From positions 1 through 20,611 of IMG/VR virus record IMGVR_UViG_3300009103_000189: a stretch of DNA of 20,611 nt; one strand, given 5' to 3'. The notes beneath the pieces were generated by a model. That model was given only the letters and a program-made list of their open reading frames with translations, made no database searches and was not told the DNA's origin. A program made the translations under genes and the position numbers. Shown one piece after another: positions 4,655 to 17,680 of this stretch. Each line of letters begins with the position of its first letter. The first letter of the stretch is position 1. Source of the stretch: a virus.

Positions 4655-5262
4655 TAGTACAACTCCTTTATTGTATCACAAATACCATACCGTTTTGCTT
4701 CCTTCGCGCTCAACCAAACATCATGCGGAGGAAGCAAAATTTCACGAACTTTTTTTTCTGTCATTCCAGTACACTTCATATAATGATTTGTGATTTGTTT
4801 CGATGTCAATTCAAATGCCTTATTTGCAGTAACCAATTCATGTTCCTTTCCCCATTTACCCCACGAATACTGATGAGACAATATGGAAGTATTTGGTGTC
4901 ATTACTCTATGACCAACTTCTCCTGCCATAAAAATCATCAATGCAGCACTGGAAACCTCTCCTAAACCAACTGTATGAATTGGTACACCAGAACCTTTCA
5001 TTGTATCAATCAATGCAAATGCATCCGTAACACTTCCCCCTCCAGAATTCAATACCAATATCAACTTTTCAAATTGAGACGATGACAGATTATTTTTAAA
5101 GATCCATTCTATGACAGGCTTTACTGAGTCTGCCTTAATATCATCCATGATCATCATCATCCCAAACTTCTCTAAACCATCAGCTTCACCACCAAACAAT
5201 GCCGACATTGCTTCACCCACATTCGAGGATTCAATGTCAATCTCTTCTTGATATTCAGTCAT
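4654..5262 (-). CDS. ClpP-like serine protease
   Basis: 202-residue protein with the ClpP/crotonase fold. The catalytic triad can be placed: Ser105 in GEVSSAALM (equivalent to the GxxxS turn), His130 in ILSHQYSWG (family: HQ), and Asp181 in PHDVWLSAKEA (family: D-x-FLSAxEA). The substrate-binding strand LNSGGGSV lies at 72-78. The open frame extends to 5313, but the ATG at 5262 overlaps the gp43 stop as ATGA and is preferred. A processing propeptide is not evident. Phage ClpP-like proteins may act as maturation proteases or interfere with host Clp. Between gp43 and glutaredoxin, coupling to a head gene is absent, so the substrate is unknown. No Clp ATPase is seen in this window. Confidence 0.88.
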   Translation of the reverse strand: MTEYQEEIDIESSNVGEAMSALFGGEADGLEKFGMMMIMDDIKADSVKPVIEWIFKNNLSSSQFEKLILVLNSGGGSVTDAFALIDTMKGSGVPIHTVGLGEVSSAALMIFMAGEVGHRVMTPNTSILSHQYSWGKWGKEHELVTANKAFELTSKQITNHYMKCTGMTEKKVREILLPPHDVWLSAKEAKRYGICDTIKELY

Positions 5263-7838
5263 ACAAAAAACCTTTCTAGGGAACCAGTTCGTTCCGCCTT
5301 CCAACCAACACAATCCAACACCACTTTAATTGGATCAAGAAATGCCTTAACAAATTGCTTGTCATAATCAACATAACCTTCCAAACAAAACTCATTTGGA
5401 AGCTCATTTACAATTGAGATAACTGGCGATTTAACAGGATTAGGAATCTTCAAATACAAGAACTTAATTTTATCACCATCAATTATCCTTTGATACTGTA
5501 AACCCAACGACTTCTCCTTAATCAAATTATTATAGATAATAGACCCCTTTACATGAATAGGTGTATGCTTTATATAGGTATCTCCATCTGTATATTTCTC
5601 AATACCATTAACACCACGAGGAAACGCAACATCCTCCGCAGGGAGAGACATAAATTCATCACGAAATTTATCCACATATCCAATCACATCATCTTCGGTT
5701 CCATTCATGATAACCATCAATGTCTCTTTAATCTTATCACGACACACTTCCGGCGTAGAAGACTTGACTGCCTCCAATCCCATAATTTTCAATTTAGGTT
5801 CCGTATATCGAACTCCTTCATTATCATACACATTTAGAACATATCGCTTTTTGGCAGTCCACAATCCTCTTGAAGCAATTGCTTCTCGCTTCATTGACAT
5901 TTTCTGTTCATATGCATTCATATAATCAGCCAATTCATCATAACACGAATCAATAAACGGTTCAATTTTTTCTGTGGCAACCTTATCAAGAAAATTAACA
6001 ATCTTATCTATCGACTCTAATGAAAATGCCCCCTCTGGAAATATCTTATCTACTAATTTTTCCATTGTGACATAAATCGAATCTGTATCACTGGCTACAA
6101 TATAATCAACATCCTCTGTTTTTAGAATGTGGTTCATATAGTCATTGACTCTCTTCTCAATCCAACGAATTGACAACTGACCAGTCTTGGTAACTGCCGT
6201 GGCAATGCGAATATCAAAAAACCGAAAGTATTGATTACCCAACGCACCATAGGCACTATTCAACTGAACCTTTCGGGCAAGCTGATCGTTATTGTGCTTG
6301 GAAATCAAATTCAAATACTTCTGCTTTTCTGCTCCTGTTGCACTCTCTGCCAACTGCTGACATTCAAGCATCTTCTTCTTAGAAGAATTTCGCTTATTGT
6401 AAAGATCCTCCAGAATCTCAGGAAGAAACCCTTGCGAATCTCGCTTGAAAAACATGATATTTGGAGTAACCGTAAGATTATCCCGCTTCAATAGCGATGT
6501 GTCAAACTCCTTATCAATAAGTTTATCATAACTGGCAATAGTGTCCCAAGGACCGCGCTTCAAAGAATCAACAAGATCCTTATTTGCCCTTTCCTCTGGA
6601 ATCATTTTCTCAGGACTCAGGTTATACTGCATCATCAAGTGAGGATACAGAGAGTTCAAATCAAAAGAAACAACCCAGTTATGAGCGCCCACTTGAGGTT
6701 CCTTGACATAGGCACCCTCAAACTGAAAATTCTTGTCGGCACTCTTTCGAGGAGGCAGCACGATGTTCTTCTTGCGAAGATGATGATAACAAATGCTATC
6801 CCACATACGCACCTGCGAAAATACATCACCCAAATTAACCTTGGCTGAATACGCAAGTGCGACTGCCATCTCAATCAACTTCATCTTGTTTTCAAGACGA
6901 TCAACAAGCTCCACATCCTTTACGTTATACTCAATGAACTTATGGTAGTCCCTCTTGTACAACGTATGCAAACTACCAAACTCAGAATACGAGAGCTTAC
7001 TCTCTCCAAGTTCTACATTTGCAATATAGTCAAGCCGATAGCTTTCTCGATTGATATATGTAAACTTCTTATACAGCTCCAGATAATCAAGGACCGAAAT
7101 CCCACTCAACTCAACAGAAATCTGATCTTTACCATAACCTGCATAGAATCTACGAATAGATGCAAACCGCCACGGAGACAAACTTCGTGCAATCTTTTGA
7201 TTGAACAGACGCTCCAGACGATTATACAAATAGGGAATATCAAACCCGCTCACATTCCACCCAGTAACAATATCAGGAGAATGTTCCATCCAGCAATCAA
7301 GAAATCGAACGAGTAGATCATCTTCATCTTCACATGAAATATACTTAATGTCCCTGTCCGCAAGTGTCTTTTCAATTTGACAATCCTCTGGTTCATCAAA
7401 ACCAAAGACATAAAAGTCATCATTAAACTTTACTGCAATTGAAATGACAGCAGATCCGGCTGTCTCTACATTCGGAAACCCCTCATCAGACGCAACCTCA
7501 ATATCAATATTGGCAATGACCAATTTATTCATATCATATTCAACATCACCAGGATACATGTCCCCAATGAAACAATATGCAAAATTATCATTTCCGTATA
7601 TCTCGTAATTAGAGACATCCTTATACTGATCTATAAAATCGCGAGTTTCTCTAATACCTCCAGGCTGAAATGACTTTACCTTTCTACCATTCAGCGTCCT
7701 GTACTTAGAGTCTTCTTTTGTCGGAAGAAACAATGTCGGAGAATACTTCTCTCGTCTCCGAAATCGCTTTCCATTATCATCAACACCACGGAAAAGAATA
7801 TCATTTCCAGTGGCTTTCACATTCGTATAAAAATTCAT
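5259..7838 (-). CDS. 43: Family B replicative DNA polymerase (T4 gp43-like)
   Basis: 859-residue polymerase with 3'-5' exonuclease, close in length to T4 gp43 (898). Exo I is NIDIEVAS with D112 and E114, the same numbering as T4. Exo II is GWNVSGFD (D200), and Exo III is YNVKDVE (D308). Polymerase motif A is SFDLNSLYPH (D393), motif B is QLNSAYGALGN (about 525-535), and motif C is SDTDSIYV (D584, D586). The KKRY motif follows near 670. All catalytic carboxylates are intact, so the enzyme should be active with proofreading. The C-terminus ends in a likely clamp-binding peptide, SLERFFV, ending in aromatics like the T4 gp43 tail. ATG at 7838; SD is weak (GGAAAT). Confidence 0.98.
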   Translation of the reverse strand: MNFYTNVKATGNDILFRGVDDNGKRFRRREKYSPTLFLPTKEDSKYRTLNGRKVKSFQPGGIRETRDFIDQYKDVSNYEIYGNDNFAYCFIGDMYPGDVEYDMNKLVIANIDIEVASDEGFPNVETAGSAVISIAVKFNDDFYVFGFDEPEDCQIEKTLADRDIKYISCEDEDDLLVRFLDCWMEHSPDIVTGWNVSGFDIPYLYNRLERLFNQKIARSLSPWRFASIRRFYAGYGKDQISVELSGISVLDYLELYKKFTYINRESYRLDYIANVELGESKLSYSEFGSLHTLYKRDYHKFIEYNVKDVELVDRLENKMKLIEMAVALAYSAKVNLGDVFSQVRMWDSICYHHLRKKNIVLPPRKSADKNFQFEGAYVKEPQVGAHNWVVSFDLNSLYPHLMMQYNLSPEKMIPEERANKDLVDSLKRGPWDTIASYDKLIDKEFDTSLLKRDNLTVTPNIMFFKRDSQGFLPEILEDLYNKRNSSKKKMLECQQLAESATGAEKQKYLNLISKHNNDQLARKVQLNSAYGALGNQYFRFFDIRIATAVTKTGQLSIRWIEKRVNDYMNHILKTEDVDYIVASDTDSIYVTMEKLVDKIFPEGAFSLESIDKIVNFLDKVATEKIEPFIDSCYDELADYMNAYEQKMSMKREAIASRGLWTAKKRYVLNVYDNEGVRYTEPKLKIMGLEAVKSSTPEVCRDKIKETLMVIMNGTEDDVIGYVDKFRDEFMSLPAEDVAFPRGVNGIEKYTDGDTYIKHTPIHVKGSIIYNNLIKEKSLGLQYQRIIDGDKIKFLYLKIPNPVKSPVISIVNELPNEFCLEGYVDYDKQFVKAFLDPIKVVLDCVGWKAERTGSLERFFV

Positions 7839-8434: not shown

Positions 8435-8442
8435 TATTTATC
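8435..8442 (-). promoter_or_regulatory. T4-type late promoter variant GATAAATA
   Basis: Seven of eight bases match TATAAATA. The hsp20 stop codon TAA (8438-8440) is inside the motif. It would drive the amidase gene, which is expected to be late, through the hairpin at 8392-8420. Confidence 0.55.
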
Positions 8443-8917
8443 CGTTCAACGTCTGCGGACCTTCCGCAGAGACACCATTAATATCAATTACACGAACCTT
8501 ATCTTCTTCAGGCGTGACGTTCTTCAATGAAATTACGAGAAGACCATTCGTAAACTCGGCTCCAATAACCTCAACCGTAGGACTAAGTGTCCACACACGT
8601 TTGAAATTACGGGCTGCAATTCCTTGATGAACATACACAGCAGAATCGGCACCATGATCCTTCTCGGATTCAACGGTGAGAACATCTTCCTTCACCGTAA
8701 CCTTAATGTCGTTTTCTGTAAATCCAGCAAGGGCAATCTCAATAGCAAAGCTATCGGAATTATCATTCCTTACAATATTGTAGGGAGGATATGACGCAGC
8801 CTGTCCTGTTCCAACACTGGTCGAAAGTAGTCGATCAAAAATCTGATCAAATCCCAAAAGGAATGGATCACTACGAAGTTCATTAAAAATACTCGGTACT
8901 CTTCTAGTTGTAACCAT
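8438..8917 (-). CDS. hsp20: Small heat-shock protein Hsp20 (IbpA-type)
   Basis: 159-residue alpha-crystallin chaperone. The N-terminal arm contains RRVPSIFNELRSDPFLLGFD, typical of IbpA-like proteins; the alpha-crystallin core spans about residues 45-145, with AIEIALAGFTENDIKV and the FKRVWTLSP strand. The consensus IxI motif is present near the C-terminus as VRVIDING. It is an ATP-independent holdase. Hsp20 genes are recurrent in marine T4-like phages, where they may protect virion or replication proteins. ATG at 8917 with AAGGAG SD seven bases upstream. That SD is paired in a ROSE-like hairpin (8925-8942), so translation may be heat-regulated. It lies in a 128-nt leader, the longest intergenic gap of the block. 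Confidence 0.95.
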   Translation of the reverse strand: MVTTRRVPSIFNELRSDPFLLGFDQIFDRLLSTSVGTGQAASYPPYNIVRNDNSDSFAIEIALAGFTENDIKVTVKEDVLTVESEKDHGADSAVYVHQGIAARNFKRVWTLSPTVEVIGAEFTNGLLVISLKNVTPEEDKVRVIDINGVSAEGPQTLNG

Positions 8918-17402: not shown

Positions 17403-17478
17403 TGGCAGGCTCGGGAGGACTTGAACCCCCAACCACCGGATTTGGAGTCCGATGCACTACCAATTGTGCTACGAGCCT
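17403..17478 (-). tRNA. tRNA-Trp (anticodon CCA)
   Basis: 76 nt, acceptor AGGCTCG / CGAGCCT, discriminator G, CCA encoded. Anticodon loop CTCCAAA gives CCA. T-arm GGGGG-TTCAAGT-CCTCC has one non-Watson-Crick pair. Separated from the ncRNA upstream by TTTTTT. Confidence 0.93.
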
Positions 17479-17484
17479 AAAAAA

Positions 17485-17598
17485 TGGTCGGGACAACCGA
17501 TTTGCAAAAAGTACCCACCCGGTATAACTCCGGCGCTATTAGGTTCCGAGTTTTATCCTAATAGACTTGGATTATCCGTAAAAGGATAACCGTGGGTT
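17485..17598 (-). ncRNA. Unrecognised 114-nt cloverleaf-like RNA ending in CCA
   Basis: It occupies one slot of the tRNA array with the same T6 spacers before and after, and ends GACCA. Folding by eye (numbering from its 5' end): P1 ACCCAC (2-7) / GTGGGT (81-86); P2 GGTTATCC (8-15) / GGATAATCC (22-30) with one bulge; P3 CTATTAGG (35-42) / CCTAATAG (56-63), perfect 8 bp with a 13-nt loop; P4 CCGG (66-69) / CCGG (77-80) with a 7-nt loop. This is a cloverleaf with four-way junction spacing like tRNA (P4 abuts P1), but no anticodon-size loop and no T-loop consensus. A 28-nt 3' tail follows, with TCGG / CCGA. I do not recognise the family. It could be a tRNA-like stable RNA akin in position to T4 RNA C/D. 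Confidence 0.6.
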
Positions 17599-17604
17599 AA
17601 AAAA

Positions 17605-17680
<76 letters not shown>

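Follow-up and report, generated by a model that had tools for sequence, protein, structure and literature searches.

A structured non-tRNA RNA candidate inside the tRNA array of a T4-like phage

The tRNA array and the predicted fold of RNA X

The DNA analyzed here, referred to as the window, is the whole 20.6-kb IMG/VR record IMGVR_UViG_3300009103_000189 (20,611 nucleotides), which comes from an uncultured virus. Its B-family DNA polymerase shows about 50% identity to the enzyme of T4-like cyanophages, and we take other proteins of the ORF list to be encoded by further replication genes; the window is that of a T4-like phage. The six tRNA genes that ARAGORN finds in it (Arg, Lys, Asn, Trp, Asp, and Leu) share the minus strand. 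Read 5′ to 3′ on this strand, part of the array runs tRNA-Lys, tRNA-Asn, a 114-nt segment that we call X, tRNA-Trp, and tRNA-Asp. From tRNA-Asn through tRNA-Trp, every CCA is followed by TTTTTT, including the CCA of X. The sense strand of the gap between tRNA-Asn and tRNA-Trp holds no ORF of at least 35 codons.

An earlier note on this DNA had placed a cloverleaf-like, CCA-ended RNA at 17485–17598, and these coordinates are right. X reads from 17598 to 17485 on the minus strand, the same strand as all six tRNAs. The T6 spacers described for it are there, with TTTTTT on both sides, and the ViennaRNA MFE fold returns the same four helices of the four-way junction that had been drawn (Table 1). 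P4 abuts the 3′ strand of P1 without a linker, and in the window this strand is followed by ACUUUUU. Compared with 200 dinucleotide shuffles, the MFE fold of the 114-nt segment has a z score of −2.54 (5 of the 200 as stable). The z score falls to −3.44 for the 92-nt core and to −4.18 for the homologue described below, with no shuffle as stable in either case. A kissing interaction between the P3 loop (AACU) and the P4 loop (AGUU) was considered and rejected, as it is lost in the homologue (AGAU). Pairing between UUUU of the P2 loop and AAAA of the P3 loop is possible in both phages but trivial, as it amounts to 4 A-U pairs.

Table 1. Positions in the window of X, its predicted parts, and the adjoining tRNA genes. 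L006 is the related viral record that carries the homologue of X.
Feature	Position	Strand	Evidence
tRNA-Asn(GUU), upstream neighbour of X	17605..17680	−	ARAGORN, Rfam
tRNA-Trp(CCA), downstream neighbour of X	17403..17478	−	ARAGORN, Rfam
Core of X: four-way junction and following U-run	17507..17598	−	z −3.44; L006 homologue
P1 5′ strand, ACCCAC, 6 bp with 17518–17513	17592..17597	−	MFE; identical in L006
P1 3′ strand, GTGGGT	17513..17518	−	MFE, alignment
P2 hairpin, 8 bp, GGTTATCC/GGATAATC, loop TTTTAC	17570..17591	−	MFE, alignment
P3 hairpin, 8 bp, CTATTAGG/CCTAATAG, 13-nt loop ATAAAACTCGGAA	17536..17564	−	MFE; stem identical in L006
P4 hairpin, 4 bp, CCGG/CCGG, 7-nt loop AGTTATA	17519..17533	−	MFE; stem identical in L006
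Tail ACTTTTTGCAAATCGGTTGTCCCGACCA, 28 nt, not conserved, weak hairpin 17498–17486 before T6	17485..17512	−	no L006 counterpart

A homologue delimits the conserved unit

Eighty related loci were gathered by using a conserved glycosyltransferase-like protein as the query. Among them, the sole homologue of X lies at 4814–4908 of L006 (IMGVR_UViG_3300007770_000065). The two settings differ: X stands between tRNA-Asn and tRNA-Trp in the window, and between a short ORF and tRNA-Leu in L006, where tRNA-Lys and tRNA-Asp come before X. From AACCCAC through GTGGGT, the two sequences are nearly identical; on both flanks, the alignment breaks down. Since homology starts and stops at the P1 helix despite these different surroundings, the conserved unit ends at P1; judged from the two sequences, it is the four-way junction, with a U-run after it in both phages.

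Within the junction, the two phages differ by six substitutions and one indel, and all 26 pairs are kept in L006. Two substitutions fall in the P2 helix with pairing kept (from window to L006, G-U to G-C and U-A to U-G, each one-sided), and the other four fall in loops or linker. The P3 loop has one change (UCGG to UCGC) and the P4 loop two, while P1 gains a seventh pair in L006 (AACCCAC/GUGGGUU). When six substitutions of the same kinds were placed at random, all 26 pairs survived in 3.9% of trials (P = 0.039). The stems, whose loss in relatives would have spoken against the earlier note, are thus kept, in the one homologue found. Because no two-sided compensatory change separates the two members, which are about 90% identical, this is consistency of the pairs and not covariation, and the predicted structure of X rests mainly on energy and consistency. 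A cmsearch score of 115–120 bits was obtained for both members, with a model derived from these same two sequences.

The blast match between the two phages gives 89.8% identity for X, compared with 84.5% for tRNA-Asp and 78.6% for tRNA-Lys; the ORF adjoining X has 51.5% protein identity in the same pair. The higher identity of X than of the tRNAs would reflect either strong constraint or recent exchange.

The CCA-ended tail of 28 nt is present in the window, but L006 has no such tail: there, TTCTTTTTTT stands between GTGGGT and tRNA-Leu. The 114-nt unit originally proposed is not supported, as the homologue retains the four-way junction and the U-run and not the tail; with the tail missing from L006, the real unit would measure about 86–92 nt and be flanked by U-runs. 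The suggested pseudoknot fares similarly, since UCGG of the P3 loop and CCGA of the tail are indeed complementary in the window while L006 has UCGC and no tail. In the MFE fold, the tail forms its own hairpin (GGUUG-UCC-CGACC). This hairpin is followed by AUUUUUU, a terminator-like pattern that occurs at chance frequency (3 found, 2.0 expected).

We compared the tail, right-anchored, with the tRNA 3′ ends of relatives. The best match was tRNA-Pro, with 10 of the 18 positions before CCA; it is weak taken by itself, as this score is reached by 2% of shuffled tails against tRNA-Pro and by 13% against any tRNA end. As a clear tRNA 3′-end fusion of that kind exists in another relative, L008 (see below), the tail is probably a remnant of a tRNA-Pro 3′ end. 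Recombination in these arrays leaves tRNA 3′ ends with their CCA and T-runs, so the CCA of X is most likely incidental.

Family searches and other RNAs of the arrays

X was described in the earlier note as a non-tRNA RNA, and it is indeed left uncalled by ARAGORN and by Rfam cmscan at E values up to 10. At gathering cut-offs, Rfam 15 finds only tRNAs in the window, and the tRNA model (RF00005, gathering cut-off 29 bits) has no match on 17485–17598 at E up to 10. The sRNA rydB (RF00118) was rejected as an assignment. Its model gives the only Rfam match of L006 X, a weak and local one over P4 and the P1 3′ strand (18.9 bits, E 0.12), far below its gathering score of 50; X of the window gives no match at E up to 10, and the needed pairing (GACCC) is absent from the window.

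The distribution of X was searched in several ways. Model R1, run over 47 related viral records, found X in one, L006 itself. Nothing comparable came up when 50,697 phage records were searched by BLAST. A host origin of X was considered and rejected, as blastn gave no match in E. coli genomes or plasmids and R1 none in two bacterial classes, represented by 289 and 274 genomes; the R1 result has little weight, given its stricter filters and the lack of a positive control. Of the exact-pattern scans of viral contigs, three gave the L006 contig alone and one gave nothing; the exact-pattern scan of genome contigs gave no X. A looser scan of genome contigs returned at least 119 stretches, many of them in GC-rich bacteria, which we judged to be chance matches. 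Searches with the proteins adjoining X yielded no further X. X is thus rare and sporadic. It is probably a real small RNA and apparently an undescribed one, as far as a literature search limited to open-access papers goes.

The closest precedent in position is the tRNA cluster of T4, in which RNAC (species 1, 139 nt) and RNAD (species 2, 119 nt) are annotated on the tRNA strand. Both are late RNAs validated by Northern blot, and their function was unknown as of 2022 (PMC9697503). The likeness pointed out in the earlier note holds: X, too, is a non-tRNA RNA of similar size that a T4-like phage encodes among its tRNAs and on their strand. The RNAs are not homologous, however. The best score of R1 was 5.6 bits with filters off, with no same-strand match inside either T4 RNA. 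RNAC folds differently and bears a T-arm-like hairpin (CCGGGUUCGAAUCCCGG); neither its fold nor this hairpin is seen in X, and the fold of RNAD also differs from that of X.

Two further structured RNA candidates were observed in the window phage and its relatives. The first, Y, lies downstream of tRNA-Arg in the window (18228–18112, minus strand) and aligns with L008:6180–6350, where its homologue spans 6192–6342. All 25 pairs of a hand-made structure are kept between the two, six of them changed on both sides, although the structure was drawn from the same two sequences on which it is scored, which flatters it. A 6-bp loop-loop interaction (CGUCAC/GUGACG) is conserved, and sliding the partners gives none. 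Y has no significant Rfam match and no good blast match in the phage records. Statistically, Y is better supported than X. The second candidate, Z, is found beside tRNA-Leu/tRNA-Pro at L008:7735–7870, at about 600–740 of L009, and at L002:5626–5782. Its long complementary segments GTGGTAG/CTACCAC, GGAAAAGAT/ATCTTTTCC, and CCAAATG/CATTTGG are invariant, and it has no blast match in the phage records.

At L008:7660–7725 and L009:529–594, the 5′ part of Y is fused to a tRNA-Leu 3′ end (CCCGCACCCGGCACCATTTTT). The two are joined at a shared AGTCCCG, and this chimera is a recombination scar in the array.

The tRNA-Leu(UAA) of L006 (about 4915–5254) is split in its anticodon by an insert and was missed by ARAGORN. 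The insert matches the group I intron model with 49.6 bits (gathering score 50, E 1e-11) and apparently sits after U34, presumably the site of cyanobacterial tRNA-Leu introns. Elsewhere in the relatives, the ROSE_3 RNA thermometer scores above gathering at L006:18145–18211 (47.3 bits) and L008:14859–14924 (48.3 bits). It has no match at gathering in the window, whose ORF 8438–8917 we take to encode a small heat-shock protein.

Possible roles of X

Starting from the observed location, strand, predicted fold, homologue, and conservation boundaries of X, we give about an even chance to its being a small stable phage RNA that is excised from a polycistronic tRNA transcript and acts in trans. X would then be a separate gene for a small non-coding RNA, about 86–92 nt in length, and one unit of the tRNA array. 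It would be co-transcribed with the tRNAs and freed from the precursor at the U-rich spacers by the enzymes that release its neighbours. The RNA would fold compactly, with P1 stacked end to end on P4, and the two 8-bp hairpins P2 and P3 could lie side by side. By analogy with T4, it may persist as a stable, probably protein-binding RNA acting in trans, as the T4 non-tRNA RNAs are likewise supposed to do. We favour this explanation because the fold exceeds chance in both members, because X is more similar between the phages than the matched tRNA-Asp and tRNA-Lys with all of its pairs intact, and because it combines the absence of a long sense ORF with U-rich flanks like those of the tRNAs and a precedent in T4. 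A regulatory or decoy role is possible, and putative. What is supported of the earlier reading is the structured non-tRNA RNA inside the tRNA array; its CCA end, its pseudoknot, and its 114-nt unit are not.

The main rival to an RNA acting in trans is a role in cis within the tRNA operon, which we consider possible, though clearly less probable. X could serve as a processing landmark, as a block to 3′-to-5′ exonucleases that guards the upstream tRNAs, or as a weak or conditional terminator. X stays inside the tRNA array in both phages, and its P1, of 7 bp in L006, is followed there at once by UCUUUUUUU; in the window, ACUUUUU comes after P1, and the tail hairpin has AUUUUUU behind it, which fits a terminator pattern. 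However, apart from the non-conserved tail of the window, our pattern scans gave no above-chance intrinsic terminator at X, and similar T-runs follow many tRNAs in arrays without X. Moreover, the tRNA that comes after X is not the same in the two phages, and a conserved four-way junction is superfluous for a terminator.

It is rather improbable that X is non-functional, a recombination scar or a decaying RNA gene in a fast-rearranging array. Its sporadic occurrence, the differences between the arrays of relatives, the resemblance of the window tail to a tRNA remnant, and the clear scar formed elsewhere by the Y and tRNA-Leu parts would all suit such an origin. Against it, the core is conserved beyond the adjacent functional tRNAs, its conservation ends at helix ends, and not one pair is broken.

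A tRNA mimic or decoy, whose CCA would be recognised by aminoacyl-tRNA synthetases, the CCA-adding enzyme, or an anticodon nuclease, is very unlikely. X does share with tRNA four helices around a junction and a 7-nt loop on the last hairpin, and the abutting P1 and P4 somewhat resemble the acceptor/T-arm stack; the tRNA-like CCA end and T6 context are seen in the window only. The tRNA model gives X no score at E up to 10, and T-loop, D-loop, and anticodon arm are all lacking. The CCA does not end an acceptor-like helix; it closes the 28-nt tail beyond P1, apart from that helix. As L006 has neither this tail nor the pseudoknot, the main support for the mimicry first suggested is gone.

Small structured RNAs directly beside tRNA genes of gut phages include the HDV-like theta ribozymes, which show that such RNAs can have a processing role (PMC10879173). 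Theta ribozymes occupy the same kind of place as X, fold into a nested double pseudoknot with a catalytic C in J4/2, and cut at the tRNA 3′ end; that X is a self-cleaving ribozyme of this type that frees tRNA ends is nevertheless scarcely credible, as our own nested-pseudoknot descriptor (run without a positive control) found no HDV-like fold in X of either the window or L006, no Rfam ribozyme matches at E up to 10, and X is separated by U-runs from tRNAs that encode their CCA.

The reading of X as a stable RNA acting in trans can be widened, tentatively and with considerable doubt, to the arrays themselves. Those of this T4-like group may form a platform for several structured RNAs that have no relation to one another, namely X, the kissing-loop RNA Y, and Z. 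These RNAs, X being one family among them, would be acquired, lost, and reshuffled between tRNA genes like cassettes, and would act in trans against the defences or the RNA enzymes of the host. X is unrelated to RNAC and RNAD yet occupies an equivalent genomic place in a distant T4-like phage. Together with the two further candidates in the window phage and its relatives, it suggests that such tRNA arrays may regularly host non-tRNA RNAs. Annotation by ORFs and tRNAs overlooks RNA genes such as X, and the question of non-tRNA RNAs in phage arrays becomes a comparative and testable one.
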